This document shows positions 15,786 to 49,766 of a DNA stretch of 64,000 nt, piece after piece. How positions within the stretch are numbered: position 1 is the first letter of the stretch; each line of letters starts with the position of its first letter. The notes beneath the pieces were generated by a model that had not been told where the DNA came from, did no database searches, and worked only from the letters and a program-made list of their open reading frames with translations. Source of the stretch: Ulota crispa (lineage: Eukaryota; Streptophyta; Bryopsida; Orthotrichales; Orthotrichaceae); the NCBI GenBank assembly GCA_963920765.1, contig OY987252.1, forward strand, positions 4,883,966-4,947,965, given 5' to 3'. Position numbers and translations under genes: made by a program.

Positions 15786-16079
15786 GAAATGAAAGAATCA
15801 CATACAAATTCTTTATAAAAGACTAAGCTTTAAGAACCTCACTTGGTTTAAGATGCACGTTTGGTCTGAGCAAACCATCTTTCCCTAGTAGTATAAATAA
15901 AAAAAAGCAATTCAGTAAAAACTAATTTCAAAACACATTTTACCCAATGGTTTGCTTGATGAGGAAGGCATCTAAGTTGCTCCACCTAACTCAAACTTAT
16001 GCAATGTCGCTTCTCAATACAAAACCTCCCTCCGCTTATAGTCCAAAGCCAACCATATGAATTCTTTTATTTTCTTAAG

Positions 16080-18045: not shown

Positions 18046-18800
18046 ATGTTCTTGGTGGATGTAGGAACATCGCTGGCAATGGTGGACTCTAGCATTGGTA
18101 ATGTGGGTGGAGGGCAAGTCGATAGGGGCAAGGTGGCACAAGATAGTGTGGAAGAGACAGCAATAGTTTTTGATGGATACTTGAAGTTCTTGACTAGACA
18201 ATCAAAGAAAATCCAAGGAGCTTTGCTACAAACACTTGGTTCTTCTTTAGGAGTGGCGTTGAAGGATGTCTCACATTGGTCCAAGTGTAAGAACAAAAGC
18301 AAGGAATATGATGACAAAGCATTTGGGCAAATGGAAGCTAGGATCAAGGGGCATCAAATCTACTTTGTTGTAGGTGGTTTAATTGACAAGCAGTCCTTCC
18401 CGGCAAGAATGCATGGGATGCAGCAATTAGGAATTCAATTTGCCACTACTTGGACTTGAGCTGCCTTGAACATTTTGGCCAGAGCACAAAGGCACTAAAT
18501 CTAGTCAAGATGGAGTTCGACAAGGATTTTGAGTATGTTGGGAGCACATTGGGCTTGTCCACCTTGGAAAAATTTATCAAGGATTTCATAAGAACAGAGC
18601 ATTACGCCTTGAAGACAAAGTGGCTTGGTGGCCAAGAGAAGTGTCCCGTTTACATTCAACCAAAGTAGTGGGAGTCTCTCATGGAGTATTGGGAATCCAA
18701 AGAATAGCAAAAGATGAGGGAGAAGATGACCAATGCTCAAAAGCATGTGAAGGAGCCTTCTAGATCGAGTCACATGGGCAAGCCTATAAGTTATTTGTAT
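18046..18800 (+). pseudogene. Transposase_24-like (Ptta/En/Spm) domain, TNPA-type
   Basis: Two overlapping frames together read a region with a coiled N-terminal part (FDGYLKFLTRQSKKIQGALL), then LSTLEKFIKDFIRTEHYALK and KCPVYIQPK. After a stop, the same frame continues WESLMEYWESKE, QKMREKMTNAQKHVKEP and SSHMGKP. Plant En/Spm TNPA-like proteins (Pfam Transposase_24) carry the pattern W..L..YW.S.E.QK.S..N..NR.....H..GSKSF here, binding element ends. There is a frame change near 18,450 and stops at 18,668 and within ESKE-QKM, so it is broken. The gap to the next coding piece (20.2 kb) holds ATTAGTCACTAGTGAG-type repeats and looks intronic. Confidence 0.65.
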
Positions 18801-19189
18801 TACTAATGCTATGCAAGATATTTGCAAGTTCCATTGTTCTCAAATCTAGTATTTTTTGCTAATTGGCTAATAGGCAAGGCTAGAGACATGACAAGTCTAG
18901 AGGAATTGGAGGGAAAAGACAGTGGGTGAGGGATAAGTGTGCATGTGTTTGTGGATGTTGTTTAACTTGGAAGTTTGTCTATTTTCTATGAGAATCAAGT
19001 GTTCATGTGATTGGTAATTTTTGTTACTTGCTTCGTTAACCAAAATTCCTAATCAAAGTTAAGTTAATCTTTGAATCCACATGTAGAGGTATCATAGAGA
19101 TCATGGTTCTTGTAATATTGACTTTGACAACCATAATCCAAGTTGATTCATGTCTTATTTGCTTTGCAATCATATCCACGCATATTGGT

Positions 19190-19560
19190 AATAATTATAT
19201 TATTGGTCAATAGTGAGTGTTCAGTCATTTATTAGTTGCTTTGTAGTTGTATTATTAGTGACTATTGAGTATTTAGTCTTTTCTCACTAGTTTCATAGTT
19301 GTATTATTAGTCACTAGTGAGTGTTTAGTCATTTTTGAGTTGTTATGTAGTTATATTGTTAGTCATTTCTCAATGGTCTTATAGTTGTATTATTAATCAC
19401 TAGTTAATATTTAGTCATTTCTTAGTGGTTATGTAGTTGTATCTTGGATATTGGTGTTTATACCAATCTCTTATTAGTCACTAGTAAGTGCTTCATTAAT
19501 AAGTGTTTGTTCAATTGTAATAGTCTTTTATTAGTCTTTAGCACCCCATATTATGTTACT
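19190..19560. repeat. TAGTCACTAGTGAG tandem motifs
   Basis: About six imperfect units of roughly 60 bp contain TTAGTCACTAGTGAGTGTT, AGTCATTT and GTTGTATTATT. It lies in the likely intron between the Transposase_24-like piece and the next coding block. Its AGTCA/TAGTC motif recurs in the arrays at 20.86-21.06 kb and 23.4-23.7 kb, suggesting one subterminal motif spread through the element. Confidence 0.7.
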
Positions 19561-20189
19561 TACATTTGGTGTTGGCCAAGATGGTGAGGTTGCTAGAGAT
19601 GCCACGCTCTCAGTGTGTGATTAAACCATAATCCAAACCATGTGTTATTACCTTAATTGACTAGAATCAGTGGTGCCTTGATTCCCTTAAGTGGACAACA
19701 AAAGTTGCATTGTTTTTCATGTTTTTTGGTAGAGATGAGGACTTGATGTGAGGAGCAAGGGAGTGAGGACTATTTTGTGCAAAGAGAAGTCCTTAAATTC
19801 TCTATTTTATATTTTATATTTATATATTTTTTGTTTTTCTTGTTCTTTTTTGTTGAATTCTAGTGGCTTTGTAGTTTTGTTGTGAAGGAGCGGGATAGTT
19901 TGGGTTGTTTTGTGTGATGACAAGTCTTGTAAGTTTCAATTTTTGTGTTTTCATTTTTTTTTTTTTTTTTTGGGTGAATTTTGGTACATAGCTGAGTGGA
20001 TTTGTTGTGAATGGGTAGGGGAGGCAAGTTGTTTCATGCAAAGTCAATTAGTCAATTAGTTTAAGTCTTAAATGTTGTTGCCATTTTTTTAAATTTTTTT
20101 CATGCTCCTGGGTGAATTGTGGTAGCTTTGTGGATTGATTGGAAATAGTATGGTAGTAGTATCTTATATGTAGTACTGACGTCATTCTT

Positions 20190-20719
20190 ATTACTACATG
20201 TAAAATATAGCAGAGGAAGGCAAAACATCCGCCTTTGAGACTGGACAAAGGGTCCTTGAGACTGGGCAAAGGGAACTTCAAAAGGAGGTTTCAGAGATAG
20301 TTGAGAGCTCAAAAGCTACTAACTTTGCCCTATTGGATATAAAATCTATGTTGGACACCTATCTTGCGGGTACCAAAGCTTTGGGTGGCAGCTCGGCAAA
20401 GCTAGAGGGAGGCATTATGAGCGGAGCACAAGTAGACACACAACCAGTGGGAGTTGAAGTTTTACATACCAAAGTGAGGGGGAAAATCGGTGGGGTGAAA
20501 GAGGTGTTAAAGGAGAAAGGCAAGGCTGATGAGGTTATATGTCCATATGCCATGGATGTGGAAGATGACATAATTCTAGAGCAACCCTTCCCTTTAAAGA
20601 CACCCATTGTTGTCCTACCTAGAACTGAATCCAAGGTGATTGATATCATCACTCTTCCAGAAGAGGTACTCATTATCCAATGTTGCAAATTGTTTGGATG
20701 TGGTGTTGACCTCATGTAG
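20190..20719 (+). pseudogene. TNPA middle region with coiled-coil-like heptads
   Basis: The frame reads FETGQRVLETGQRELQKEV, then SSKATNFALLDIKSMLDTYLAG, and continues to VDLM with a stop at 20,717. The repeated ETGQR and alternating leucines suggest a coiled coil. Plant En/Spm TNPA-like proteins commonly have a coiled or low-complexity region after Transposase_24. No catalytic motif is seen. The open frame is 128 residues from the first methionine at 20,333 and extends further upstream without one. Confidence 0.45.
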
Positions 20720-20859
20720 TTTTATTGCAAATGGCGCAAGTAATGGTAGAAATCTAGTGTTGGGATAAAATAGTAGTTATGAGTTATTAGTGTTAAAGTA
20801 CCGTTTACAAGTTGTATTATTTATCCATAGTAGGCATTTAGTCATTTACTAGTTGTTTT

Positions 20860-21065
20860 GCAGTCAAGTTGTACTATAAGGTAGTGGACATGTAGTCACA
20901 TACTATTTTTTTTGCAGTCATGCAGTAATATATTAGTTGTCTTATAGTCATTTAGTCATACACTAGTTGTTTGGGAGTCATGTAGTCATATATTAGTTGT
21001 TCTGCAGTCTTGTAGTCATATACTAGTTGTTTTGCAGTCATGTAGTCCTAGTCATCTAGTCATAC
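20860..21065. repeat. TAGTCATATACTAGTTGTTTTG tandem array, about 30 bp
   Basis: About six units of TAGTCATATACTAGTTG, TTTTGCAGTCATG; the third base block varies (ATGTAGTC, CTTGTAGTC). It lies between two coding blocks of the CACTA element. Confidence 0.75.
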
Positions 21066-21386
21066 GGACCTATCAATCTGATATTTTACCACTTGTCAAA
21101 TAGTATTGGAGTGTTTTAATTTGTACTTACTCAAAGATTGGTTAGTACAAGTTGATGGTAGCTTGGACTAATGGGTGATGTTAAATTGGATTACCAAATT
21201 TTGAAAGAGGCAAGGGCAAAGTCTCCAGGGAGGATTACTTTAAATTGATCAGGGTGCAGTCCCTCTAGCAGTGGTCCCTCCAGCAGTGGTTCCTCTAGTA
21301 GTCGTCCCTCTTGCACCACTTCCGCCACCACTACCTCATGTTGTAATAGAAGAAGTAACAATGACAAACCAGGTGAGACCTAATTC

Positions 21387-22080
21387 ATGTCACCACGTTT
21401 GAATGGCAAACAAAAGAAGCTGGTTATATTTGGGTTGTTTATGACCTTGATCGACTTTGACCAAGACCTACACCCTGATTATAAGATTCTCAAGCCTACA
21501 TTCCAAATATGTTCACAAGGGATTTTGTGTTGTCCTTGGTTATTGGAGTTCCTTCAAATGTGTTTCCTAAAATTCACAGTTGCATTCTAGTGTTCCCTCA
21601 CTGCACAGTTTGTGGCGGATGTAGTTGGTGCTTTGATGCTAATGTTGAAAGGAATACAGAGCACCCCGGCCTTTAGTTGGAGTAATGATGACATAGAAAC
21701 AGTGACATCTTTGGGGGACAAGCCACTAAAGGAGAAGGCACTATACAAAGTTTTTAGTACATGGCCACAGTGGAATACAAACAATACCATAATTGTAGAC
21801 GCAGATTGGACAAAACTTAATTCAATTGTCCAACTAACGTCATAGTGGCCCCAGCCTTTTTTGCAAAGGAATCGACTCATCTAGTGGACGATAATTTGTA
21901 TTTGAAAATCTCTTTGTGGCCTCAATTGCAAGGATTTCTGCATTGTAGTACCATCATTGAATTTTCCACAAAATATTCCCAATATTGGATCACAGCAAAT
22001 GGCTACCCTAGTGACCATGTGCATGCGCAAAACCACAAGGGCAAAAATTTGGCAATTAATCCATTGGTGGGGCCAGGCTG
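21387..22080 (+). pseudogene. FCP1/NIF-like HAD phosphatase domain in the CACTA element
   Basis: Collinear pieces match the plant HAD phosphatases of the FCP1/NLI-interacting-factor type. KKLVIFGLFMTLIDF corresponds to KKLLVLD.NG.LVD; LLEFLQMCFLKFTVAF.CS to YLDFLKFCFE.FEVGIWSS; VADVVGALML then FSWSNDD to VD.VVDFL and FCWDQS. KPLKEKALYKVFSTWPQWN and NNTIIVDADWTKLN correspond to the KPL..K.L..VW..FP..NASNT.LLDDSPYKALLN block. The end, DDNLYLKISLWPQLQGF, matches the D.SL...L..YL..L tail. The catalytic DxDxT is degraded here to G-L-F-M-T, so activity is not expected even before counting the stops at 21,588 and 21,843. It sits between the TNPA-like blocks and a basic linker. Confidence 0.65.
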
Positions 22081-22149
22081 AAATTTGAGTTTGTAGTTTT
22101 AGAGTTGACATTGCAGTTCCAATCTATTTGACACATTACCTCTCTTGAT

Positions 22150-22585
22150 TGAAGCAAAAGAAGCAAGATAAGAAGAAGCCTAAACCGGTTGCAAAGAAAG
22201 GACAGGAGCATAAAGGGCAGAAGGTGAAATTCTAACATTATAAGTGGAGGCTAAGTATTGAAATTGAAATTTGCATATATTAAATTACTGTGTCTAATTT
22301 GTTGTTTTGTTGATGCAGTTCACAATGGGGTAGAAGGTGTGCCTCCTAAACCCAAAAAGTGGAAGGCAGAAGGTGGTGGCCGTAGGATCTATTAGTGGTT
22401 TTGGAGGAGATACTATCCACTTTGATGTGATCCTTCAAGGGTGGTGCAAAGTAGACGTCATTCAAGCCCTACGTGCGAACATGTCTTTGATGAAGACAAA
22501 TCCTAAAGGTGATCAACTGACTGTGGAAGATATTGTAGGTGGAAACATTGTTTGGGAGGAAAAGAATGTAAAACCCTCCACTTGA
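22150..22585 (+). pseudogene. Basic linker and En/Spm C-terminal domain (DUF8039-like)
   Basis: A lysine-rich stretch (KKQDKKKPKPVAKKGQEHKG) precedes an intron-like gap ending in GATGCAG at 22,318. It is followed by KVVAVGSISGFGGDTIHFD, FDVILQGWCKV and LTVEDIVGGNIVWEEKNV. The pattern V(A/V).G.V.S......H......V.V......A.L....G....T..D..G..I.WP resembles the C-terminal domain in many plant En/Spm-type transposon proteins. The resemblance is moderate and by eye only. The frame ends in a stop at 22,583. Confidence 0.4.
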
Positions 22586-22839
22586 AATTGTTGGATCTTG
22601 TTTTATGTTTGTTCACTGTTAGGCAGCGGAGTGGTACAGTCCCACTGTACAATCCATGGTTGTAGTTACAAATAGATTTTGGAACTTTATAGCTTGGAGG
22701 TGGACTCTCATTACTTTGGCTACTACATTGTAACTAACTTTGAGATTTTGCTTTCATTGTCTATATGAAATTGCAAGCATATGCACATGATGTTGAGTGG
22801 GTGGGTATAAAGAATAGTATGTGATTGTTTGTGATTGCT

Positions 22840-23335
22840 AATTAAGTAGTAGATACATTATGAGATTTTGATTGACCATGTACCGCTAATTTGTAGTATA
22901 CATGGAGTATACATTGAATTGTGAATGAACAGCTACTGCAATTTGTGATAGTATCTTCACTATAATGTTTCTTCACAATGACTATAAAACGACTTAATTG
23001 TGTCTTTGGAGTGACTTCACAGTGACTGCAGAATGAACTAATTGTGACTTTGGAGTGACTTCAATTTAATCGCATGGTGAGACCATATTGTGACTTTAAT
23101 GTCTAAATGAGGTTTGCAAAATGGTGACTGATTTTGTGACTGGTGTGTAATTGATTTGTGACTTCTCTATGATTACATACTAAATTATTTGTGATTGTTT
23201 TGTGACTACAATTTGTATGATTCTGAAACTGGTTTGTTACTATGTTGTACCAAAATAGTTACTACATGGTGAAGCAAAAACTTGTTGTGACTGTTTGGTG
23301 ACTGTGTTGTCACTGCAATTTAGCTTCATCTCCTC
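22840..23335. repeat. Degenerate GTGACT-rich region
   Basis: Loose repetition of TTGTGACTTTGGAGTGACTTCA and TTGTGACTG motifs without a fixed period. It follows the last coding block of the CACTA element and precedes the clean 21-bp array, consistent with a 3' subterminal region. No coding content. Confidence 0.5.
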
Positions 23336-23439
23336 TCTCTTGTGACTAAAATATTATTGAAATAGACATCTTGCTTACAACTACATTAAGACTATTTGAT
23401 AACTAATATTGTCTTGAGCACTGTGGCACCTTGATTTAG

Positions 23440-23690
23440 AACTAAAAGACGGCTAGTATATGACTAAAAGACAACTAGTATATGACTAAAAGACTACTGA
23501 TATATGACTAAAAGACTACTAATATATGACTGAAAGATGACTAGCATATGACTAAAAGACTACTAATGTATGACTAAAAGACAACTAATACATGACTAAA
23601 AGACTACTAATATATGACTAAAAGACGACCAGTATATGACAAAAAGACCACTAGTATATGACTAAAAGATGACTAGTATATGACTGAATG
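23440..23690. repeat. 20-21 bp tandem array, TATGACTAAAAGACTACTAA
   Basis: About 12 units of ATATGACTAAAAGAC followed by GACTAGT, TACTAAT or AACTAAT. Spacing is 20-22 bp with few substitutions. In maize En/Spm, short repeated motifs in subterminal regions bind the TNPA protein. A similar role here is inference from position. Confidence 0.85.
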
Positions 23691-24111
23691 AGAATTTATG
23701 GGTTACTAATCTATTACTAAATGTGGACTAATGTTAAGATAACAAATGCGGACCATATAAAGCAGTTACAGAGATCAAGACATGTTGCACTAGGTAGTTG
23801 GTTTGATTTTGTCAGTAGAAATAAAATGGCACCCTTGGGAATTGGGAAAATTTAAATGCCAACAAGAAAGAAGGGGCAGCTAGGTTCAAGAAAGAGAGAA
23901 CATTTCTTTCTTCCAAATAAAGACAAAGTTCACATGACATAAAGGATGAGATACTATAATGTCCTAAATGACAAAGACTTCTAAACAACTGAAAAATGAC
24001 TAAATTGTGACCAAATGAGATCAGTCATGATATAGTCATTCAGAAACAAATGACTCACTTCTTAGTCATTTGTAGCAGTCATATAGGACGCTATTTTTTA
24101 CCTATGCAGTA

Positions 24112-25914
24112 ATTTCTTCCTCCCCTCCACCTCGGAGCACACCTTGCAATGCACTTGTGTTACACCCCCATTTGCACCTACGATACTCCCAGCCCATGGC
24201 AGCTTTGCTGCCCAAGCATCATGGAATTGGCGATTCAATTTGTAACCTTTTTTTCTTTTGCAAGCCAAACCCATTTGCAAAGACCTCTAGGCAGTGGTAG
24301 AGCACTCAACTTTCCCCTTTCCCTTCTCTGTGGCGGACATGACCCTCCCTTTTCTCTCGGCAACGGGAGACACAACCTTCCCTTTCCCCTTCTTTGTAGC
24401 GCTTACGATTGCAGGTTTTGCAATGACCTCCGCGGCAATAACCACAAAATCTTTTGCTGACACTGAATCCTCATTGTCAATGGCTATTATGACATAGTCC
24501 TCCTCCGCTGATCTCCTCGCACCACTTAAACTCCCCAAATTATGCAAATCAAACATTGGAATAGCACTGTCACCATTAGTAAACCCTAGAACCCTTCTAT
24601 CGTACAGGAACTTTTGTAGTGTGCATTGCATTTTCCTAGCTTTTGACATTGAACACCATATTCATTAAAATGAGAGATTGGAGACCTCTCAAAATAATCA
24701 TGTTGTTCTTGACTTAAATTAGCGATTTCCATTAAAATGAGAGTTTTGAACTAAATTCGCATAAAACCTTTCAGTTTTAGCTAAATTGACATAAATTTTT
24801 TTGTGGAGTTTTCTTTAAATTACCTCTCATTTCAATGGAAAACTTTCATATTAATGAATATGGTCTTATTGCAGCAAACAACCAAGAACAACAATGCAAA
24901 GAGAACAAAACACAATGACAAAGAAAACAAGAAATATAGGTTTTGCCACTCCTTGCCTCGTCAATTTCAATCCGAGCATTTGGAATTGTTCATTCTTACC
25001 TTCGCGGCGCTCCTTGCTTCTCTAGTTGGCGGCTCAAGGGAGTTGAAGCTCCATTACTTCATGAAATCTGCAATTTTCTGTAGCCAAATAAGCTGAACAG
25101 TCTGCCGTCATTCATAAACACAAAGCCAATGCCTTAGTGGCGCCAATTCTCCAAATCCAAGCAGAAATGACTTGTAATTTTAGAAGACAGAATACAAATA
25201 CATTCCAAAAGTGAAAACTAATCCTGTCCATAGCAACATAATTTGTGAAAGCTGAATGAAATATTGCGGGAGTGGGAGGGTAGCTTCGGAAATTTGCACA
25301 AAAAATTTGCCATGCAAGAGCTGCAGTGATGGAGCAAAGGCGAGAAGAGAACCGCGCCATTGCCTAGCAAGTAGGCGGAGAGGAAAGAGGAGATTGAAAA
25401 TGGCGAGGACTTTTGCGAGCAAAGTGCAGCGCTGGCAACAACGCAAAAGTACATAAGGGGGAACATGTGACAGGGCTAATGAAGAAAGCCTGCACCCACA
25501 CCAGCAATCAATCCTGCTGTCAGGTTGATTCTGGCGATGATGGCTAGGATCTCCAGGGCCGAGGTGGCCCACTCTCTACAATCATAGCAGCCAGCATGGC
25601 AATGCATGCTTGGGTGCATGTCTGGTTTGGGCAAATATGTTTACTAATGATACCCTGAATTGCTTTGTACCAATCGTTAGTGCAGTTTGCAAGTAAGTTT
25701 CTGGCGTATATTTGCCAAAGATTTAAACGTTGGCAGCTCCTTGCCGACCAAGATGGGCAAGGAACAACAAGGATACAACCGTCATTGTTGTGTTTCAAGA
25801 ATTGAACCTTGGAGATGATACCAAAAAGGGCATTCTTGACAATAATCACCAAGGTTGGAAGAAGTATAGCAACAAATCCATCCAAATATCAACCTTTTGT
25901 AGGTAAGACAATTA
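24112..25914. other. Unassigned stretch, partly GC-richer
   Basis: A minus-strand frame at 24,287-24,649 encodes 120 residues with two copies of SAT(K/E)KGKGKV and an acidic centre. I do not recognise it and the repetition suggests low complexity. At about 24,950-25,600 composition is richer in G and C and several overlapping frames occur on both strands, for example SALEILAIIARINLTAGLIAG on the minus strand. None matches a family I know. It may hold another host exon remnant. Confidence 0.3.
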
Positions 25915-26655
25915 GGGTGATTGCAAGAAACACTTGTAATATTTCTTGTCCCCATCACCTCCTGCGGGTGCTTTTTGGCTTGTAACTTTTGCATAGCAAG
26001 TTTTATTGAGCTGAAATTTTGGAGAAAGGTACATGTCATAGTTATAAACCTTCCATTATTTTTGAAATTTTTTTAAAATTATTTTACTATTTTTGAACAG
26101 CCCCCAAATAGGTGTCTACTTTGGCCATTTTGGGGGGTTTTTAGTACTATTTTGCGTCCAAAAAAGCAAATTTCATGCCACAAATCAAGGAAGTTGTTCA
26201 TCATAGAGCATTACATGGATGCCTAAAAGGGTTCCACAAAATTCTAAATTCCACGTTGTGCACACACCTTCAAAAATGGCATCCTTTCTCGAATGATTGG
26301 TGAAGTAAAAAAAACTTCCTACAAAAACCACTAGCATCAAGTGAAGCTACTCAAAGAGATAAAAAATGGCCATTTTTTGATTTATTTTTTTGAATGTTTT
26401 TACTAATTTCTAAAAAGCATAAAGGAAATTGTCCTTTTGTGGGTAATTTCAATCCTTCTATTTTTGTGCATAACTTTTAGAATAAATTTTTTCTAGGTCT
26501 AAATTTTCACGAATATATTATTTTAAGTGCTTTTCAAATTGTCCATATTTTATTTATTTTCTAAAATTTTATTTCAAAAGCTCATGGTACTACCTAGTAC
26601 TACAAGTTTTCAAGGTGTTTAAGACAAAATTGTGAAGTGTTTTTTGCAATCACCC
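25915..26655 (+). mobile_element. Non-autonomous TIR element, copy 1 (741 bp)
   Basis: It begins GGGTGATTGCAAGAAA and ends TTTTTGCAATCACCC, an inverted match of about 15 bp. The interior carries CACCTCCTGCGGGTGC, GGCTTGTAACTTTTGC, CCATTTTGGGGGG and GTACTACCTAGTACTAC. It shares its full length with copies at 27,812-28,544 (same orientation) and 58,129-58,850 (inverted). No coding frame. No convincing target duplication was found for this copy. Confidence 0.8.
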
Positions 26656-26957
26656 ATCACTAGCTATTTGCTGTTAGACAAATCAATGGTATATAGAGGA
26701 ACCAAAAGTTGTTCTAAGTCTCAAAAGCACTTAGCTTAGGAAAGATTGCTCAAAACCGTTTATATTAACATATGTCACACAACTTTACTGGCATCTTGTT
26801 GCAAGAATGAATCTAGAGGAAGTACATTATACTCTGAATCCTCACAATTCATTCATATTGTATCCAAATGATGCATTCTCTAATGTTTCATAATTCTCCT
26901 TAGTTCACAAACAAGAAATATAAAAAAATTTGAACATTCAAACAACAGAGACAATGT

Positions 26958-27170
26958 TTGGTGCAAAAGGTGTCGAAGCTACCTACCTCACAACATCTCA
27001 CCATCACCCTAACCAAACTTGGATTATGCAATGACAAAGGATACTACAAATGTAGCATGAAGGACTACCGGGCCAAAAAGATGGTGCAACCAACCGACAC
27101 AAACACTAACATCATTGAAGTCACATACCTCGGAAACCACACCTACTCCAACACGTTATTAAGGTAGATC
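26958..27170 (+). pseudogene. WRKY domain remnant
   Basis: The frame reads TKLGLCNDKGYYKCS, then KDYRAKKMVQPTD, and NIIEVTYLGNHTY. WRKY group III domains read W(R)KYGQK...P(R)GYY(R/K)C..K..QGC.A.K.VQ..(D)...(I/F)EVTY.G.HTC. Here WRKYGQ is reduced to TKLGL with about six residues missing before GYYKC; the second zinc cysteine is a tyrosine and the final cysteine or histidine is also a tyrosine. DNA binding would be lost. A neighbouring frame (27,219-27,512) may be the same gene further on, but I cannot confirm it. The fragment lies between two direct copies of the 740-bp element. Confidence 0.6.
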
Positions 27171-27811
27171 CGATCTTGAACGTCCAACTTTGGCGTTTTG
27201 CAAGCCGAGCACTAGCTCTTGACCACAAGTATTGATGAAGGAGTAGCAGACGTTCCTGTATCTGAAGATGTTCTCGTGCAAACCAAAATTACAAGACTCC
27301 TGAAACATCATACAAGCAATGGTTTGATCACCAAATTGGACAAATCCATTGGTGATAACAACTATGACTCTAGTTTGAAACCCCAATGTATAAAGGTTAG
27401 AACCGCACACATGAAATGGCGACACGGAGTAGTGATTAGCAAAGGACACAAAATCAGAGCCCTAGCGCAAGTGTACTCAGAGGCTTGGTGTGCCGCCCCT
27501 TGCCGACTATGATGGATGATGAGCAAAGCACTAAACCACCCTATAGTTAGCCTCTTTAATTTATGTTTTTTCATAAATTAACAAATTAGCATAATTTATG
27601 CACATCATGAAAGTTAGTTTGTGTATTGTCATAAATTAGCAAACTTATTTTTTATATTTGCATACTTGATATCATATTAAATGTGACAAAACATGAAATT
27701 GCTTGCACTTCAACACCCTCTCAAGTGAGAGGTTAGTCAACAATCTATAATGCTCATCATTTGAGAATTTACAAATAGAGAAGTTGGATTCAACTTTGGC
27801 CATGCTAAGGA

Positions 27812-28544
27812 GGGTGATTGCAAGAAACACTTGTATTGCTTTTTGTCCCCTTCACCTCTTGCTGGTGCTTCTTGGCTTGTAACTTTTGCTCAAAAAGTCC
27901 TTTTGAGATGAAATTTCAAAAGATGCATAGTTGTAAACCTTTTATAATTTTTGCAATTTTTTTAAAATTATTTTACTATTTTTAAAGAGCCCCCAAAAAG
28001 ATGTCTATCTTGGCCATTTTGGAGGTTTTAAGTACTATTTTGGGTTCAAAAAAGCAATTCACATATCACAAATTAGGGAAGTCATTCATCATAAAGCATT
28101 ACATGGATATATAGAAGGGTTTTAGGAAATTGTGAATTCTTTGCCTTCCACATGCTCTCAAAGTGGGCATCCTTTGGTCAATGATTGGAGAAAGAAAACA
28201 AACTTCCCCAAAAAAGCAATTCCATCAATACAAGTGTCTTAAATAGAGCAAAAATGGCCATTTTTTGATTTATTTTTTTGAATGTTTTACCTAATTTCTA
28301 AAAAGCAAAATGGAAATTGTCCTTTTGTGGGTAATTTCAATCCCTCTATTTTTGTGCATAACTTTTAGAATAAATTTTTTCTAGGTTTGAATTTTCATGA
28401 GTATGCTATTTTAAGTGGTTTATAAATTATCTATATTTTATTTTATTTAAAAAATATGTATTTCAAAAGCTCATAGTACTACCTAGTACTACTAGTTTTA
28501 TGGGTGTTTGAGACAAAACTATAAAATGTTTCTTGCAACTATCC
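27812..28544 (+). mobile_element. Non-autonomous TIR element, copy 2 (733 bp)
   Basis: Same family and orientation as 25,915-26,655, beginning GGGTGATTGCAAGAAACACT and ending TTTCTTGCAACTATCC. Identity to copy 1 is roughly 80% by eye along the full length. The end is slightly degraded (CTATCC instead of TCACCC). No coding frame. Confidence 0.8.
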
Positions 28545-29634
28545 AAGAACATGGTGGCCTTGCCACCACAGAAGTTGCACAATGACTGCCATGTGGCATA
28601 TGTCAAGTGCAACCTTTTTTTATAAAGAACCAATGGGCTTAATTAGTGCACATTGTCAAGAGTTAATTTGTTGATTTGTGCATTCTTTTTTAGAAAATGT
28701 AAATTAAAGAGGCCTGGGATGAATACTACAAGTTTTCAATTTAGAAGGTATAGCCGGTGTGACACGTAAGAGTTAACCAACAGTTTAAAAGCTTGATGAA
28801 TTTGTCGATGATTGCTACATTGTCCATCTTAGGCCATTGTGCAATAGGCTTATGTCAACTTATCAAGGACATGGCTTCATGTCTAATTAGGTCAGAAACG
28901 GCTTTCTTCTCTTGCGTGGGTTAATGTACCATTGCACCTCTTCTACTTGAAAAATGCAAGGGCAGAAAGATAATATTATACACAAATATAAATATATGGT
29001 TTGCAAAGACATACTTCAAGTGTGTTTGCACACTTTGCTTCTTTAATGTATTTTGTTGGTTTCTAAACTATCCGCCTACCTAGTAGCAGCGTTCTCAAAA
29101 CTGGCTAAATTTCAGCTAGGCTTCTACATAAATTCAAATAAGCATCACAAGTAAGTAGGAAAAAAATCAAGAAAATGCAAACTTGAGCACAAAATCATAC
29201 ATGGTAAACATCAAATCTTAACTTGCTATTTCCTCTAGCTTCGTAACTAGCATCCATTGCTGCCGCCGGCTTTGAGGATGTCACTTCTAAACTATTCCAA
29301 GCGTACACCTATTGCTGCAGCGACAACATTATAATTGTTCAAACTGCAACCCCCAACTCTCTCCTGCGTTGAAATATGAAGTTGAGGTTAGCAGAGGGGT
29401 TGATTGAATTGTTACTGTCTAGGTTTAAAAATTTACCCGTCAAGGCATTGATTGTCAATGAAAACTTGCCGCAACACAACACCACTTGCGTACTTGTTGT
29501 TGTGCATTGAATCGTTTGGCCCAATGCTCAATTCCATGCCGTTATGCAGTTTAGGTTCAATTGTGCAGAATGCCAACCCGTGCCATTGAGTTGCAACAAA
29601 AGATAAATTGTTCTGCAATCCTAAACCCTAACCC
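28545..29634. other. Unassigned AT-rich spacer
   Basis: No reading frame of note or repeat was recognised until a telomere-like string, CTAAACCCTAACCC, at 29,621-29,634, which abuts the left TTAA of the piggyBac element. Confidence 0.4.
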
Positions 29635-29886
29635 TTAACCCTAGACCACCCAAGTGGTCACTTTCTGTCCACTAGGAATTGATGAAGGGCTGGGCCCATT
29701 TCAGATTGGGGTGATTTGATGAGATGAAACATGGGTTTAATTGAATGCATTTCAAAGGACAATAAAGGTGTAAATGCGGTTTAGGATTTACGGGTAAATC
29801 ATGTCAGGGCAATCATAGCAAATCTGAAGAGAAACATGGGACACGGCAGTTAGGACAAATGTCTGAAAAGTGACCGAGAGTAGCCA

Positions 29887-30534
29887 GTGCAATGCCGTTG
29901 GGCTTTGGATTCGATTGCCGTGGCAGGGACGATGCCGTGGGGTTTGCCAGGCGCAGTCGACAATGCGCCACAAAGCTTATCGAAGTGCAGCATTCATCCC
30001 TTTGCGCCGGCGCACCACTTCCACTTACCGTTGCCAAGTATCAACAGGTCGGATCCATTCTTGATCTTGTGCACGATGACAACGGCGCTTTGGGCGGGCC
30101 AGGCTACAAAGAAAGAGGTCCTTGAAGTGCAGCGCAAATTGTTCCTCTGGGCACAAGAGAGTGGGGTAAGCAAGAGCACAGCGCAAAAAGTGGAGAATTG
30201 CCTCAAGGAGGACTTCCTGTTGTCATTGCCGCAGCCACGGCGAAAGCATCGGTGGGGTGATAATCCGGGTCCAAGTAGTTGGCGCTACCTCTGCCGTCGT
30301 CAAATCAGCAGGTTGCTAGGGTGGTCGGAACAATATCCTGAGGAAGACAAACGTGGGATTCCCGAGTTCCTGAACTTCTTGCTTCGAACCAAACAGTGGC
30401 CGAATACGGGGGACGATGAAGCGCCAGGCAAGAACGAAGGCAGCAACGGATTTGGAAGCCAAGCCGGCTCAGCAGCGAGGCCAAATCCAAAGGGCCTTGT
30501 CATTGGCTTGAAGGACTTGTCCGAGCCAGAGTAG
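29887..30534 (+). CDS. Unrecognised 215-residue frame upstream of the piggyBac transposase
   Basis: An open frame of 215 codons lies within the GC-rich part of the piggyBac element. A likelier start is the methionine at 30,079 (MTTALWAG), which gives about 151 residues. It includes ATKKEVLEVQRKLFLWAQ, VSKSTAQKVENCLKED, RRQISRLLGWSEQYPEED, and a glycine- and asparagine-rich tail. The VSKSTAQKV and RRQISRLLG segments suggest helical DNA-binding or coiled parts, but I recognise no domain. The next frame (30,545-30,916, glycine-rich, starting MTFQTNGGRGVSNLGG) may continue it after a frame change. It could be an accessory protein of the element or captured sequence. Confidence 0.5.
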   Translation: MQCRWALDSIAVAGTMPWGLPGAVDNAPQSLSKCSIHPFAPAHHFHLPLPSINRSDPFLILCTMTTALWAGQATKKEVLEVQRKLFLWAQESGVSKSTAQKVENCLKEDFLLSLPQPRRKHRWGDNPGPSSWRYLCRRQISRLLGWSEQYPEEDKRGIPEFLNFLLRTKQWPNTGDDEAPGKNEGSNGFGSQAGSAARPNPKGLVIGLKDLSEPE

Positions 30535-31591
30535 CCAACCTGTTTTGACGTTCCAGACAAATGGGGGAAGAGGAGTCTCTAACCTCGGCGGCTCTGGAAA
30601 TGGGCATTCCAAAGTGACGAGCGGAGAGCAGGGTCTGCACACACAAGGGGCAGAGACTGGGATTGTTCTCGATTCTATCGGAGCTGGGAATGACCTAGGA
30701 TTGTTGAGTTCCCTCCCCCACAATTTGGCGGTTTCTTATGTGCAAGGGGAGTGTGTAGGTGTCCAGAGCATGGGAGCTGGGAGAATCAATGGAAAATTGG
30801 GTGCAGTTGCTCATAATTTAGGAATTTATGTGACCAAAGTGGGGGAATCCAGCGTGCCTGTAAGGTCAGGTCAAGCTCAAGCTGTGAATGATGGGGGGAA
30901 TGCGGTTCAAGGATAAGGCAAGCGACTCAGAAATCGTCAAAAGGCCAGAGGGTGGGTACTGCATGCCATTGTTCGAAGCAACAAGTCGCCGCCGGTCCTT
31001 AGATCCAGAATGCTTTGCCAGGAAACCGATTTGGATTAGAGGCAGCGAATGTCTCCATCGGTTTCACCTTCCTCAATTGGCGGTCGCGTTGCTCATCGAC
31101 CAAGGCGTGCATACTCTTCGAGCGTTGGGCCGACCTAACCTGTGATCAGAAACTCGCCAGGCAGTGCCACGAATTTAGCTCCATCAGAGCAAACACAAGC
31201 AGTTTCTCCACGACAGAGGATGGGGGTTGTACATTCACCTCTTTGAGCGGTAAACTTGGCAGCTGCCTTTGATACTATTACCCGCATAGTGGACTGGGTG
31301 AATTTGGTGACTGATTTGTCCACTTCCAATTCTCCTCGAGTCTCATTTCATCAGGACCATGTACTGATTGGTGGGCATGCAGACCGTGCGTTGCCAGCGA
31401 TAGGTCAAGCCCCCATAACTGGCGCGGAGGACGGCGGAACGGCAAGTGACAACTCTGAAGGAGAAACCATTGGTCCCTTCTAGAACCAAGGCGACCAGGT
31501 AGGTGCCACCAAATTCACGGAGATCCTATCAACAGGAGGAAGAAGCGGTGGCAACCTGACGCCACCTCGACGTGCCGCACCTGCATTAGAG

Positions 31592-33540
31592 GTGGACGGG
31601 GTGAACAGCGCCAAAGGCTGGACAACAGAATCTTGCGATACTGATTGGACGCCGGACTACGCTGACTTTGCAGGTAATATTTCCTTCGACGATAACAACT
31701 CTGATTGGCTGTTGAGTGACGACGATGTAACAGACCTAGAGGAACATGCAATTGATGTTGATGAGTATCGGGAGTATATGTTCATAGACCCTGTGCAAAG
31801 CACTGCTTTGGAGAGAATTCGCCATCTTTATAGAGATTCAGAGTGGGATACTAGTTGACCAACTTTGCTAGGCATCTGAGCAACCTTCACAGGGGCATAC
31901 CCGGGATCCAGTTAGCGTTTTTGGCAAAACAAACCAAGTGCCCGCTCATTCTTCGATCGTTGGTTTGATGATACCACGGTGGACCAAATCATTTGTTACA
32001 CAAACCTTTATGCTTCACAAAATACGAGTAACCTGGCCAATCCTAGGCAGAGGGGGAGTCCAGCCGGATCAAGCGGAGGAAGCCGTTGGACTCCAACAAA
32101 TCGTGTAGAGCTGCGTGCATTTTTGGGGGTCACTGTTCTAATGGGACTGAAGGATTCACCTTCAGTTCATGATTACTGGAGGGAGGACGTGTTCTGACGT
32201 TGTGGTGTAATCCCCCAAGTTTTTTCAAGAGATCGATTTGAGATGTTGCTGCGCTATGTGCATTGCATCAACAACGCCACATCTTGCCGAGATAAAACAG
32301 ACCCTGTGTATGACAAGCTTTACAAGATCCACTGGTTACTTGAGCATTTTGTTGCGGTCTCAAAGACGTCATACTACCTGGAGAAGTGGTTGACGTGCGA
32401 TGAGGTGATGGTTGCCTATCGAGGCTTCCACAATCCATGCCGGCAAAACCTACGCAATACATATTCAAACTCTGGGCGGCCGTTTGTGTAGAGTCTGGTT
32501 ACATATGGAATGTAATACCATACTTGAGGAAGGTTGGAGGCCAGTCCAAGGTGGGCTTAGGCGAGTGCGTGGTTCATCAACTGACGGCCAGGCTCCAGCA
32601 TCGGGGACACTGAATATGCGTAGATAATTACTTCACCTGCCCATCTCTTTTTGATATTCTTTTACGACGGGGAATCTTTGCCATAGGGTTAGTGAAAGGG
32701 AATCGAGTAGGCTTTCCTTCCATGCTTTCTAGATACAAAATAGGGGAGCACCCTAGGTCTACTCTCTTCTGGTTTACACACTCCAGTGGTCAAATGGCTG
32801 CGTCCGTGTGGTACGACAGCAAGCTAGTTGCTTTCCTAAGCACTTCAGTCGACCCTACTGGCCCAGCACTAGCTCGACGTTAGTTGAAGGGGAAACGTGA
32901 GGAGATTCCGACCACGCCGCAGCAAGTTGAGCAACATGCGCAGAGTGGATCTGGTAGACCAGATGCGGAGGAATTATACGACACAGTTTCACAGCATGAA
33001 GTGGTAGCATAAATATCTAAATGTTTGTCGTGGATTCTGTTTTGCACAATGGTTGGGTATAATACCAGCATGATAGGAGGGCTCGTGGTGAGAAGAAGGT
33101 CTGCCGCGTGAACTTCATTTACAACGTGCCGTTTGGTCTCATACTATTGAAGTTGCCAAGCCCTCGTACCTGCACAACTTGGAATTCTCGGCCATTGGCC
33201 CTCCACTACGTACAGACTGACCCGTTGATCCGACGCAGGTGTTGCGTTTGTAAACAAAAGCAAGCCGATTATTGCCAAGCCTGCGGCTTTGTGTTCATGT
33301 GCATAGCTAATTGTTTCCCAAAGGTTCATTTGTCCAAGGCATGGGCACTCAGAGCTCGAGATTTTGCTATGCATCATCACCAAATTGACGTGGTTTGTTT
33401 TTGGGTTTGGCTGCCAGCTGTGTGGATGGTGGCGAGCAGTCCCCTAAGAGAGCCCAGGTCTATCAACTTCATTGGACGTTGCTCCCGTGTGACGCCACCG
33501 CATTTTGAGCTGCGATACGACTCAAAGTTGTAGGTAGGGT
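31592..33540 (+). pseudogene. piggyBac transposase (DDE_Tnp_1_7), decayed
   Basis: Order of parts: an acidic N-terminus (NNSDWLLSDDDVTDLEEH); an entry region with FFDRWFDDTTVDQIICYTN; ELRAFLGVTVLMGLKDSPSV and HDYWREDVF; FSRDRFEMLLRYVH; DPVYDKLYKIHWLLEHF; KWLTCDEVMVAYRG (first catalytic Asp); SGYIWNVIPYL; VDNYFTCPSLFD (second Asp); LVKGNRVGFPSMLSR; a degraded GYNTSMIGG where the third Asp block is expected; and a C-terminal zinc ribbon RRRCCVCKQ, CQACGFVFMC, CFPKVH. Each matches the piggyBac transposase order. Several stops (for example just after EWDTS and after WREDVF) and frame changes (about 32,480) break it, so it is inactive. The length implied, about 620 residues, fits the family. Confidence 0.9.
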
Positions 33541-33910
33541 CTCCACCTAGAAGCCCAACTCCAGAGTGAAACCGCCCTCCTCGACATAGATCCGGCCAGG
33601 CCACCGCTGTTCATTTTCTGCATTCAGTTTGTAGGATTCTGAGAGCACTTGGTGCTGAATTCAGGAGAGTTGTTTGTAGGCAATAGGAACTCTAGGTGCC
33701 AAGAGGCCTGTTTCAATGTACCCACACCTTATTTTTCTTTAGAACAAGGCAATTCTGGGATTTTCCAGCAGAAATTGTGTCTCTTTGCTTTGTGGGTTGG
33801 TAGCTTCTGTAAATTGTGAAGAATATTGAACGACTATGTTGTGTTGCAAGATTATGCTAGATTATGTTTCACTGGACAGTTGCATGGTTTAAATTCGTCG
33901 TGTTTGTGAG

Positions 33911-34880
33911 CAGTAAAATTATCTTGAAGTGGCCTTAGCTTTTTTTCTAACCAATACATGATTGAGTAGCAAGAATGGCTACATTTTATTGAAAGATATA
34001 TAGTTGGATGGTTTCAATCTTTCATCAAAGCTAAATCTCATGATGGTTATTAAAAAATATAGAATATTACACCAGTAGAATGAGGCGGCATGAAGTGGAA
34101 CCCTGAAAATCATACTCCTACTCCCAAACATGTGTTTAAAAGTTGGCTAAATATTTTCCATTTAAAAAAAAATAACTATAGAACAATTTGTTACACCAAA
34201 TTTGGTGTAGCAAAAAGCAATAATTAGCATAGAATGTTTTCACTAACCCTAACCAGTGAAAATCTACCTCAACCCTACTTCTATACAAATTTTTATTATT
34301 TTATTGTGGTGAGGTGGCTTGAGCTCTGCCCCAACCCTACCTCTACACAAGGATTTTTTTTTGTTGTGTTGTGGGTTGAACTCTATCTCAACTCTATGTC
34401 AACACAAGGATTTTTTTTTTTTTTTTTTTTGTGTTGATGTGGGTTGAGCTCTACCTCAACCCTACCTCAACATAAGGTTTTTTGCTTATTTTTGTTTTTT
34501 TGTTGAGGTGGGGTTGAGCTCTATCTCAAGGAGTGGAATTATTTTGGTCTAAGTTGGCTTGGTTTTTTTTCAAATCAATAAATGGTTGAGTAGGAAGAAT
34601 GGCTACATTTTTTTTACAGGTTAAAAGTTGGATGCTCTAAACCTTTTATTAAGGCTAAATTTCATGATAGTTTTATGAGAAATTAGAATATTACACTAGT
34701 AAGGTGAGACAACATCTAATAGAACCTTGAAAATTGGGCTCCTACTCCCAAACTTGTGTATAAAAGTTGGCTACATACTTTACATTTTTTTCAAAAAATA
34801 CCATAGAAAAATCAACCACACCAATTTTGCACCAATTTTGGTGTAGCAAAAAAGCAATGATTAGCATCAAACATTTTTAC
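33911..34880. mobile_element. AT-rich insertion inside the piggyBac element, bounded by direct repeats
   Basis: TGTTTGTGAG occurs at 33,901-33,910 and again at 34,881-34,890, a 10-bp flanking duplication. Between them is a 970-bp AT-rich block inside otherwise GC-rich sequence. It consists of two direct repeats, 33,911-34,243 and 34,531-34,880 (roughly 75-80% alike), around a minisatellite core. The duplication length suits a MULE-like insertion, but the end-to-end direct repeats are LTR-like; the class is unresolved. No coding content. Confidence 0.65.
34244..34530. repeat. Hairpin-forming minisatellite, about 65 bp unit
   Basis: About four units carry GGGTTGAGCTCTACCTCAACCC-type palindromes (GGGTTGAG pairing with CTCAACCC), each followed by TACCTCAACACAAGG and a long T run. 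The palindrome is in every unit, so single strands would form serial hairpins. Confidence 0.75.
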
Positions 34881-35389
34881 TGTTTGTGAGTACCGTTTGC
34901 AGGATGGTGGGGTCTCTCAGAACCACCTGCATTATCCCGCTTACCAGCCAGTCCTTCCCGATCAGCGCCGGTCAACACCAACCACGCCTGCACAACCAAG
35001 TCGGCATCTTTTGTTTCGGATTTTGCTGTTTTCAATTGAAAGTTAGAATTTTTTTTCCTATGTCAGTGCAATTGGGATCTTCGTCAGCCACTCGTAGGCT
35101 TTGTGGATTGGGTCCTATCTGATTGGCAAATGAGGAACCCATTCGGCCAGACCACCCCAAAAAAAAGGCCCGTGCTCACAGTTTGTTCGGCATTGACTCC
35201 TATAATCTTTCGACCAAACCGATAGATGACACATCTTCATTGTCATGTAGCATTGGCTTTGAGGTGAGCGTGGAATTCAACATTGAAGTTTTTTGAAACC
35301 GACCGGATTGCTTGGAGGTGACAATTTTATCTCGATGGCCTCAAGGTGCATGTCTTTGACGCAAACACGGCTGGGTGTTCTAGGGTTAA

Positions 35390-36960
35390 CCCCTAGATGC
35401 CCAAGGTCTTTTTGAGCTTCTAGGAATTTGCTCTAAACTGAACAAAAAGCCAACATTTTGATAAGTTGTATCAAATTTTTTTAAACTATAACCATACAAA
35501 TTCAAACTAGATATGTTAAAACATCACATAGGAAAAGAAAACACAACAATATCACTTATGGATTGAAAAATTATAATGTTTGATCAAAAGGGTGCTAAAA
35601 CTACAAAGATGACTTAAAGTCTTTCAATCCTCTTTTCACATGTCAAATCTAAAATGCTGATTACCAAAAAAATACAAGGGTAAAGGACATAACATACATA
35701 CCTCCAATCCATTTACAGCTTTTCAAAACCTCTTTTACAATTTTCTAAAATGAATATCTAGTGTGAATTTTCCTCCAGGATCTAGTGTATTTGAGGCTCA
35801 TTTTTGTGAGCTCTCAACACTAAAAAAGTCAAGATTGCAATGAGCACCCTTGCACAAAATCTTGAATAGAAAATTTGCAATTAATAATTTTCAAAATTGG
35901 GTTTTTGATGCTAAAACTAGACTTCAAAAAAAACAATTTTAAAATACTAAATACTAAAAATAGCAGCTTTGGTAGATTATATTGAACTTCAAAATATTGT
36001 TGGTACCAAAATGTGGTGCCTTGGGCATTTAGGGGTCAACAACAATAACCTCTACTGTTAAAAAGGATTTGGACCCAAGGAAGGGCCTCTTCCCCCCAAA
36101 ACCGTGGAAACTTTGGAAACACTTTCACATAGGTAGTTAGTAGCAACGCAACATGGCATTGAGGCGACCATGTCAAATAATATTGTTTAATTAATTTTTG
36201 ATCTTACAAATAAAAATAAAAATAAAAAACTCAAAACTTACTTCTTTTTATTTTGGGACTTTATTACTTTCTTTTCTTTTTTTGCTAGTTCATTGGCACC
36301 AATTGGTTCCCAACATTGGACCTAGCCCTGATTGCTACGTAGACACCTTCTATAGTCTTGCCTATAGTCCAACCTATCAAATTGAGATCATTATAACCTT
36401 GAAATGCAAAATGTAATCAAAACAATATTTTAGCGCACACTTGCATCTATGAAAGTTGCTGACACACAACATATATGTCTCATTTGTGACATGGTCTAGA
36501 GCTAAAATTATAAATGAAGAGATCTCTACAAGAGAACATGTGTTGAAAGGACAATTGGTGGACAATAAAATGTCCACACCAAGTACACTAAATATTGCAT
36601 TTAGGTTGCCTTACCTCAAAAAGTTACCTTGTGATGGTTTAGTCAATTGTAAATGCATGCAACTTTCTAAACTTTTGGATTTCACATGTTTTATGACGTG
36701 GATAGCCGCTAATTTGATTTTCACCATATCTTTTTTGTTGCCAAAACCTTTAAAGAATAATTATTGCAATAATTATTGATGAAAATTATTGTAGTGATGG
36801 TAATTATTAATATAATGTAAATTTTCAAGAAATTAGTGTAGAGCAACCCGGATGCAATATTTAGTGAACAACATGGAATTAAATTTCCGTGGGTGCAACA
36901 GGCTCATTTGAAATTTCTACACATGTACTCTTTTTGACACCCAAGAATGAACAATGGACT
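35390..36960. other. Unassigned AT-rich stretch
   Basis: No host coding frame was recognised. A block at about 36,050-36,176 (GGAAGGGCCTCTTCCCCCC, CCGTGGAAACTTTGGAAACA) recurs inverted at about 43,570-43,690, so it belongs to a dispersed repeat. The 107-codon frame near 36,456-36,779 shows no family features. Confidence 0.4.
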
Positions 36961-36964: not shown

Positions 36965-37180
36965 AAGTATTAACCCTTAAATGACCATGGGGCATAATAT
37001 TTACGCTACCATATGATTGGCATTTGCTACCAATAACAAGTTTTCATTTGGAATTTCAAGTAGCTCACTAGAATCGTTCCAATCTATTCTCCAACTCCTT
37101 TGTCAATTTTACATGTGGTAAAGGTATGAATCTATTCCCAATAAATGAAAAACACCTTGTATTGTGCCAGCCGCGGCAGC
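36965..37180 (+). repeat. Dispersed repeat, copy 2 (first copy at 10,955-11,160)
   Basis: Matches 10,955-11,160 through GGGCATA, TTGGCATTTGCTACCAATA, TATTCTCCAACT and AAAACACCTTGTATTGTGCC. Same orientation, non-coding. Confidence 0.6.
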
Positions 37181-44984: not shown

Positions 44985-45250
44985 ATATTGAAAGAGAATT
45001 TCATTTCAACAATTATTATTTTGACAATTAAATGTTACGATAGATTGTGTAGGATCTAAAATAACATTAGTTTTCATATGCTTTTGCAAAACAAAACATT
45101 TTTACATTGGGCGTGTTTGAAGCAATCTTTGTTGTTTTGCAAAAGTGAGTATTGGCCTTTAGGAACCAACTCAAAAATTACATGGAGTATATAGAGGTTC
45201 AACTAATTTGTGTTTTGAACAAAGTTCCATTTTTATTGGCTATAGATGAA
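44985..45250 (+). repeat. Inverted repeat arm, partner at 51,330-51,585
   Basis: AATTTCATTTCAACAATTAT, GATTGTGTAGGATC and GGGCGTGTTTGAAGCAATC occur here and, on the opposite strand, at 51,330-51,585. Past 45,250 the similarity continues with 50,210-50,360 inverted, so the right arm is split by the insertion at 50,369-51,322. Confidence 0.75.
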
Positions 45251-45303
45251 GAACTAAATTTTTGTTTTGTTTTATTTTTTCATTCAAGTTTTTTTTGTTT
45301 GCT

Positions 45304-46440
45304 TTTTACAAATTTGGATGTTGTGTTATAGGACACTACTTGAAATCCAAGAGCCCTATTTGTGCTTGTTTTAAGTTTAGTAAAGAGCCTTCTCACTAGA
45401 AGAAAAACAAGTATAAACAATTGCCACAAATTGCCACAACTAGGTCATATTAACTACCTTACAATTGCACAACAATTGCACAACTACAATCTAGTCGCGC
45501 AGTTGTTGTGCAGTTGTTTTTGCAGATGTAAGGCAATTAATGTGACCTAGTCGTGGCAATTTGTGGCAATTGTTTATGGCATGATTTTCTTCTAGTGTTA
45601 GATTTCAAGAGGGCTTTATAGAAAAGATTTTTTTTTGTTTTTTTTTTAATGGACTATCTTGTTATATTGCAAGACCCTATTAAGAACCCAAAAGCCATGT
45701 TTGTGCTTGTTTTAGGTTTTGTAAAGGGCTCCTTGGATTTCAAGGAGCCATCTTTATCATATATGTAATATTTCATTTTCATTTTTTGTTTGTTTTCTAT
45801 CACCCATTATTATTTTTTAGGTTTTACAAATTTGGTTTTTGTGAAAGAGGAGCCTATTTGGAACTTGGGAGCCCTATTTGTGCTTGTTATGGAATTTGTA
45901 AAGGGGTTAGAAAGAGCATTAAAATTGCAAATTATATAAGATCTTCACAATATATAGGATTTCAAATTAGAAATCCATAGTTTTTAGCATAACCAAATAG
46001 GTACTTTATTAAAAACCTTATATATTGTGAAGATCTTACATAATTTGCAATTTTAATGCTCTTTCTAACCCCTTTACAAATTCCATAACAAGCACAAGTA
46101 GGGCTCCCAAGTTCCAAATAGGCTCCTCTTTCACAAAAACCAAATTTGTAAAACCTAAAAAATAATAATGGGTGATAGAAAACAAACAAAAAATGAAAAT
46201 GAAATATTACATATATGATAAAGATGGCTCCTTGAAATCCAAGGAGCCCTTTACAAAACCTAAAACAAGCACAAACATGGCTTTTGGGTTCTTAATAGGG
46301 TCTTGCAATATAACAAGACAGTCCATTAAAAAAAAAACAAAAAAAAATCTTTTCTCTAAAACCCTCTTGAAATCTAAGATGGCTCTTTACTAAACTCATA
46401 ACAAGCACAAATAGGGCTCTTGGATTTTGAATAGGGTCTT
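45304..46440. repeat. Long near-perfect hairpin with a MITE in one arm
   Basis: Left arm 45,304-45,958 and right arm 46,014-46,440 are inverted copies around a spacer of about 55 bp. Near the centre the arms are about 95% alike; AAGATCTTCACAATATATA pairs with its complement and mirror-image frames of about 64 residues appear on the two strands. The left arm is longer only because a 204-bp MITE sits in it. The arm sequence is a diverged unit of a family also seen at 46,440-46,830 and 50,205-50,360 (CACAAATAGGGCTCTTGG). Confidence 0.9.
45394..45597. mobile_element. Fold-back MITE with CACTAGAAGAAAA ends
   Basis: The left end is CACTAGAAGAAAAACAAGTA, continuing ACAATTGCCACAAATTGCC. The right end is the inverse, ending TTTTCTTCTAGTG. 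Inverted pairing extends about 60 bp with ACTAGGTCA..TTAA inside. The opposite hairpin arm lacks it (about 46,376-46,380), giving an empty site. A clear 3-bp target duplication is not visible (TCT versus TTA). Confidence 0.85.
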
Positions 46441-46830
46441 ACAATACAACAACCAAATTTGCTAAAAAAATAATTTAAAAGTTAAAGCGTAAAAAAAAAA
46501 AAAAATTTAATTCTTATTTTAATTTTACTAAAGAGCCCTTTCAAAACCCAATAGGGTACTTTACAAAACTCAAAACAAGCACAAATAGGGCTCTGTACAA
46601 AACTTAAAACAAATACAAAAATGGCTATTGGATTTTGAATAGGGTCCTACAACATAACCACCAAGGCTATTTAAAAAAAAAAACAAAAGATTTTTTTTTT
46701 CTAGAAAATCCTCTCCAAATCCAAGAGAGCTCTTTGCAAAACTTGGAACAAGTACAAATAGGACTTTTAGGTTTTGAATATGGTCCTTCAACACAATAAC
46801 CAATTTTTGTTTTTTTATTTTTATTTTTAT
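46441..46830. repeat. Tandem units of the CACAAATAGGGCTCTTGG family
   Basis: Two to three diverged units, each with CAAAACAAGCACAAATAGGG, TTTTGAATAGGGTC and ACAACAACC, then an A- or T-rich tract. Same family as the hairpin arms. No coding content; the 106-codon minus-strand frame here follows from poly-A and lysine codons. Confidence 0.65.
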
Positions 46831-49715: not shown

Positions 49716-49738
49716 CTACTTGTATAAAAATCTTGATA

Positions 49739-49766
49739 AATATATATATATATATATATGTATATA
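49739..49766. repeat. (TA)n microsatellite
   Basis: An AT dinucleotide run of about 11 repeats with one G interruption, immediately left of the 408-bp MITE. A shorter TA run follows that element's right end, consistent with insertion into a TA tract. Confidence 0.85.

Follow-up and report, generated by a model that had tools for sequence, protein, structure and literature searches.

The piggyBac superfamily is well known from insects and bats. The bases CCC usually open the ends of these elements, and piggyBac has also been identified in plants, according to the available excerpt of one source (PMC10140906). In the accessible portions of further papers, PiggyBac is counted among the superfamilies present in all studied groups, land plants included (PMC4438587), among the plant class II superfamilies (PMC10794571), and among the MITE superfamilies of angiosperms (PMC10004981), and the repeat tables contained in these portions give small PiggyBac amounts for C-fern (1230 copies, 122,417 bp), Stipa (one copy, 75 bp), and Arctostaphylos (121 copies, 6007 bp) (PMC6890710, PMC8319324, PMC9113465). 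The accessible text of a 2008 grapevine paper, by contrast, states that just five other superfamilies had been reported from plants, and that of PMC10954464 makes no statement on plant piggyBac. A search of titles and abstract starts in the open-licence literature returned no bounded plant piggyBac among the matches listed. A preliminary description of the locus presented here had stated that piggyBac is generally reported as absent from flowering plants, a view that agrees with the excerpt of the grapevine paper and is too strong in light of those of PMC4438587, PMC10794571, and PMC10004981 and of the repeat tables. As far as these excerpts go, plant piggyBac is thinly documented but not unheard of, figuring as entries in tables or as a single word in an enumeration.

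The window, by which we mean the whole stretch of 64,000 nucleotides that was analyzed, contains an element that we regard with high confidence as an autonomous DNA transposon of the piggyBac superfamily, now dead, that lies in the nuclear genome of a plant. The features of the element and of the repeat adjoining it are as follows.

29635–29638, no strand: left TTAA target-site copy
29639–29652, plus strand: left terminal inverted repeat, CCCTAGACCACCCA
29884–30531, plus strand: 216-codon open frame in the GC-rich 5' part of the element, with no family match
31592–33533 (both limits approximate), plus strand: broken piggyBac transposase gene, in pieces across three frames
31916–32491, plus strand: transposase piece 1, with the LTCDE motif (first Asp)
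32443–32880, plus strand: transposase piece 2, with the VDNYFT motif (second Asp)
32894–33070, plus strand: transposase piece 3, with VDLVDQM, likely the third catalytic Asp (motif identified by eye)
33102–33530, plus strand: putative C-terminal transposase piece with a Cys-rich run at 33231–33317
33903–33910, no strand: left copy of the 8-bp duplication TTTGTGAG of a nested insert
33911–34882, no strand: nested hAT-like non-autonomous insert with ends CAGTAAAA and inverted CAGTAAAA
34883–34890, no strand: right copy of TTTGTGAG
35372–35385, minus strand: right terminal inverted repeat
35386–35389, no strand: right TTAA target-site copy, common to the element and the adjoining repeat
35390–36035, no strand: repeat of 646 bp whose inverted ends read CCCCTA[G/A]ATGCCCAAGG, with TTAA on the left and TCAA on the right, a candidate piggyBac-type MITE

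The borders of the element are exact, with TTAA-CCCTAGACCACCCA running from 29635 and inverted TTAA-CCCTAGAACACCCA running up to 35389. The inverted ends start with CCC and agree at 13 of 14 positions, TTAA is present on either side, and repeat finding gave 18-nt arms that are 94% complementary. Together with a transposase that matches DDE_Tnp_1_7, these ends uphold the bounded piggyBac of the preliminary description. To judge how often such a pair arises by chance among the 421 TTAA sites of the window, pairs bordered by TTAA and differing at no more than one of 14 nt were counted in 40 block-wise Markov simulations, which gave a mean of 0.025 pairs per window and a largest count of 1; a GC-rich pair (at least 7 G/C) appeared in none of the 40. 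The real window has six such pairs. One is that of the piggyBac element; of the remaining five, three belong to a palindrome at 45.6–46.3 kb and two to an inverted duplication at 57.6/62.6 kb. In the palindrome (45646–46329), stretches of ~110 nt from both sides are closely alike, and a nearly identical open frame is found from both sides (45684–45977 on the plus strand and 45965–46291 on the minus strand). The inverted duplication (53675–59312/61676–63982) comprises three blocks with 70–74% identity and a ~735-bp repeat between two of them; this repeat has three copies (25911–26663, 27811–28545, and 58121–58855) with GGTGATTGCAA-like inverted ends. Between its TTAAs the piggyBac element measures 4767 bp when the nested insert and one copy of its duplication are subtracted. 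No subterminal repeat common to both of its ends was found: the best alignment scored 18, and 22 was the 95% point of the shuffles.

The transposase region was searched against Pfam in the three forward frames, with stops read as X. One frame matched DDE_Tnp_1_7 with an E-value of 1.6e-25 (90.6 bits, profile positions 2–150 of 349) and a second frame matched it with an E-value of 3.7e-21 (76.3 bits, positions 145–316 of 349), against a cut-off of 22.4 bits. DDE_Tnp_1_7 was the single Pfam family in each of these frames and the matched pieces adjoin, while the third forward frame gave no Pfam match. These two strong matches bear out the earlier assignment of the transposase, and the motifs quoted for it are present, with TCDEVMVAYRG at 32393 and VDNYFTCPSLFD at 32620. 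In PDB sequence searches piece 1 matched piggyBat (7.3e-8) and Trichoplusia ni piggyBac (6.4e-5), and piece 2 matched T. ni piggyBac (7.4e-4) with no piggyBat match; weaker unrelated matches accompanied both pieces. The LTCDE and VDNYFT motifs align with Asp motifs that are conserved in the solved PDB structures, and we take their Asp residues to be the first and second catalytic Asp. VDLVDQM, which we assume to be the motif of the third catalytic Asp, probably carries that residue in piece 3, as identified by eye; piece 3 alone has no piggyBac Pfam match. The Cys-rich run, CCVCKQKQADYCQACGF, exists, but its designation as a C-terminal zinc ribbon was not confirmed, with Pfam giving just a B-box zinc-binding family for its open frame (E 0.4, below the cut-off) and a PDB search with the same frame matching no chain. 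This unconfirmed ribbon, the third Asp being a motif found by eye, and the two ends having no common subterminal repeat are the points that weigh against the reading as a dead autonomous copy.

The gene is badly decayed. In-frame stops, leaving out those that terminate the pieces, number four in 31484–32488, one in 32443–32880, one in 32894–33070, and none in 33063–33530. Of the four in 31484–32488, those at 31856, 31877, and 31913 precede the start of the Pfam match at ~31940. The stretch matched by Pfam is interrupted by a single frame change and by three stops (32195, 32611, and 32881). From the positions of VDLVDQM and the Cys-rich run we infer two more frame changes. The gene as read can yield no complete transposase, and these interruptions of the region matched by Pfam, three or more stops plus one frame change, uphold the earlier statement that the element has decayed in place. 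For the open frame of 216 codons in the 5' part, Pfam gave no match up to E 10 and a single-sequence fold was uninformative (pLDDT 45); it may be another ORF belonging to the element or have arisen by chance in GC-rich DNA.

Near the right end of the piggyBac element lies the nested insert of 972 bp, which is absent from the preliminary description and which explains the AT-rich right part of the element. It has short inverted ends and is bracketed by a target duplication of 8 bp, and an 8-bp duplication with CAGT-type ends is what we take to be the hAT signature. The end pattern CAGTRAAA occurs five times in the window against 10.6 expected by chance, making it rarer than expected, so the evidence for a hAT-like insert is the exact placement of the 8-bp duplication at the paired ends. 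The interior contains two copies of a repeat of ~340–355 bp with 75% identity and tandem units of 57/68 bp. With hAT-type MITEs the insert shares the duplication of 8 bp and short inverted ends of the CAGT type; it differs from them in its internal tandem repeats, and no transposase was seen in it.

For the surroundings, all 113 open frames of at least 68 codons starting outside 29600–35400 were scanned against Pfam. Five families were found, each in one frame: RVT_1 (1.6e-11), WRKY (2.9e-8), Pkinase (6.2e-5), PK_Tyr_Ser-Thr (0.002), and Sec66 (0.0072). The RVT_1 match we take to be the frame 13152–13478, as assigned by reading. The WRKY match (~27033–27143, 27.5 bits against a cut-off of 21) belongs to a frame at 26934–27164 that holds the C-terminal half of a WRKY domain and seems to represent a gene that is truncated or decayed, or a single exon of it; its PDB matches are WRKY domains, led by RRS1 (1.3e-4), with all others no better than 0.006. 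WRKY genes are, to our knowledge, almost confined to plants, and this half domain at a distance of 2.5 kb from the element agrees with the plant neighborhood described previously. The kinase match (~5015–5107) scored 17.9 bits, below its cut-off of 31.7, and the exon matched MAP kinases in the PDB, with MAPK7 best, a match that by itself is no sign of a plant. Judged by these sequence features, a plant host is very probable, and the features of the window do not distinguish between angiosperm, gymnosperm, and fern. Scans of the window with Rfam (gathering scores) and for tRNAs gave no matches, and neither did Pfam for two plus-strand frames of 45000–60000.

A composition sharply unlike that of the flanks could also be read as an assembly chimera, in which a contaminant from an insect, fungus, or alga is joined to plant sequence. 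However, both junctions of the element fall exactly on TTAA, and several repeats occur on opposite sides of it (25911–26663 and 27811–28545 against 58121–58855, 73–74% identity; 10952 against 36970, 78%; 2–125 against 35386–35509, 77%), which makes a chimera very unlikely and agrees with the earlier view that there is no contaminant join. As the copy is in addition decayed and carries a nested AT-rich insert, the contaminant reading was rejected. Equally rejected was the reading of the locus as a domesticated piggyBac-derived host gene and not a transposon. The two aligned Asp motifs that are still present would suit such a gene, but the region matched by Pfam is broken by three or more stops and a change of frame, and the element still has its inverted ends and TTAA, which leaves this reading with a negligible probability.

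The repeats next to the dead transposon bear on where it came from. The 646-bp repeat (35386–36039 with flanks) abuts the element and uses its right TTAA as a start. Its inverted ends have 22-nt arms (91%), with 17-nt ends CCCCTA[G/A]ATGCCCAAGG that are similar but not identical to the piggyBac ends, and it has TTAA on the left but TCAA on the right; it folds better than 20 of 20 shuffles (z -5.7). A partial relative at 2–125 (minus strand) starts at the same TTAACCCC. A second repeat family (10952–11146 and 36970–37165) aligns over 196 bp from exactly TT[G/A]ACCCTTAAA, and a lone similar end, TTAACCCCTAAAAGACCA, is located at 37857. An inverted partner was sought within 4 kb of four starts. 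A good one exists for 35386 alone, with no convincing partner within that distance for 10952, 36970, or 37857. The end pattern, with up to three mismatches, has nine matches, one of them the right end of piggyBac, against a mean of 2.9, and none of 100 shuffles reached nine; TTRACCCYTARANGNCCA, with up to one mismatch, fits six ends, located at five loci, and 60 simulations gave a mean of 0.03 and a largest count of 1. Both counts are post hoc and no independent test, because the pattern was derived from the matches themselves. Elsewhere in the window, tandem arrays extend over 14481–23731, and six bins in 15001–21000 have a GC skew of 0.25–0.36.

The composition of the element was compared with that of the window. 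CpG observed/expected is 0.69–0.79 in the three 1-kb bins of 30001–33000, the top three of 64, with a mean of 0.27 for the 57 bins outside 29001–36000. Within the element the ratio is 0.74 and 0.73 for two central stretches and 0.74 for the last 499 bp, and 0.38 and 0.42 for two short non-coding stretches; it is 0.24–0.34 for four flanking stretches, 0.04 for the nested insert, and 0.00 for the adjoining 646-bp repeat. The bin at 5001, which has the MAP-kinase exon, reaches 0.64. The GC content of the central part of the element is 0.485–0.535, well above the flanks. Four other 1-kb bins reach 0.44–0.48 and the bins at 12–16 kb reach 0.41–0.48, so the GC argument for arrival from elsewhere, as made in the preliminary description, is weak; CpG retention is the better support for it, but comes with no tree. 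The retention of CpG fits either a copy younger than its surroundings or a CpG-rich donor but does not date the copy, and the high CpG may in part be due simply to coding origin.

The neighboring repeats that start with TT[A/G]ACCC hint at a resident piggyBac-type population, and there is perhaps an even chance that the plant lineage has long carried such a population with non-autonomous relatives, the element being a late, dead autonomous copy. Repeats found by self-BLAST begin exactly with TT[A/G]ACCC in two independent pairs (2–125/35386–35509 and 10952/36970), the repeat at 35386–36039 has inverted ends and TTAA/TCAA, and the six ends from five loci that fit TTRACCCYTARANGNCCA far exceed the simulated mean. 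Weighing against long residence are the derivation of that pattern from its own matches, repeat ends that resemble those of the element but do not equal them, TTGA at two of the six ends, three of four starts with no convincing inverted partner within 4 kb, and the fact that no transposase ties the repeats to the element. Horizontal transfer, bringing in the element after the surrounding repeats were already old, is also conceivable, if somewhat doubtful. The CpG ratio of the bins in 30001–33000 and the central GC content favor such a transfer, but coding DNA can start out richer in CpG, as in the bin of the MAP-kinase exon, the two short non-coding stretches of the element have less CpG, and the gene is already badly broken. 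A search for transposase relatives in IMG/VR viral contigs and GTDB prokaryote genomes gave pattern matches, none of which was confirmed by tblastn, and hence no donor relative in these collections. Returning to long residence, we tentatively propose a resident piggyBac ecosystem, in which a CpG-rich, fairly young autonomous lineage may coexist with miniature families that are older and AT-rich, target TTAA, and have CCC[C/T]TARA ends. If so, piggyBac would have invaded a land-plant lineage and diversified there, beyond stray fragments.

Cut-and-paste transposition is the general mechanism of the piggyBac family. By this mechanism, a DDD transposase would once have cut the element at its CCC ends and pasted it into a TTAA, giving TTAA on each side. 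The copy would then have been out of selection, accumulating stops and frame changes, and a hAT-like element would have inserted in it afterward, leaving the 8-bp duplication. We infer cut-and-paste in the present host, the order of these events, and past activity of the family here. A piggyBac lineage resident in or newly arrived in land plants is a larger claim than a bounded dead copy.

The best PDB match of piece 1 is the transposase of piggyBat (PDB ID 9c0f), which we take to be a bat element, with 30% identity; in contrast to piggyBat, the present element is broken and, with 4.77 kb net, long, and its second transposase piece has no piggyBat match. The chain named "Transposase" in PDB ID 6x67 and 6x68 is presumably piggyBac IFP2 of T. 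ni, and with it LTCDE/LTIDE and VDNYFT/CDNWFT are aligned at 28% and 30% identity. As given in the available excerpt, IFP2 shares with the element the TTAA target and 14-bp ends, but it measures 2472 bp and has 19-bp subterminal inverted repeats (PMC10140906), whereas no such 19-bp repeat of the IFP2 group is found in the element, the ends of which have no subterminal repeat in common. The plant entries for C-fern, Stipa, and Arctostaphylos in the available tables carry the same superfamily label and are mostly short pieces on average. Unlike these, the element here has both ends, TTAA target sites, and a recognizable transposase, and such a copy provides a query for testing the history of piggyBac in plants, including horizontal arrival.
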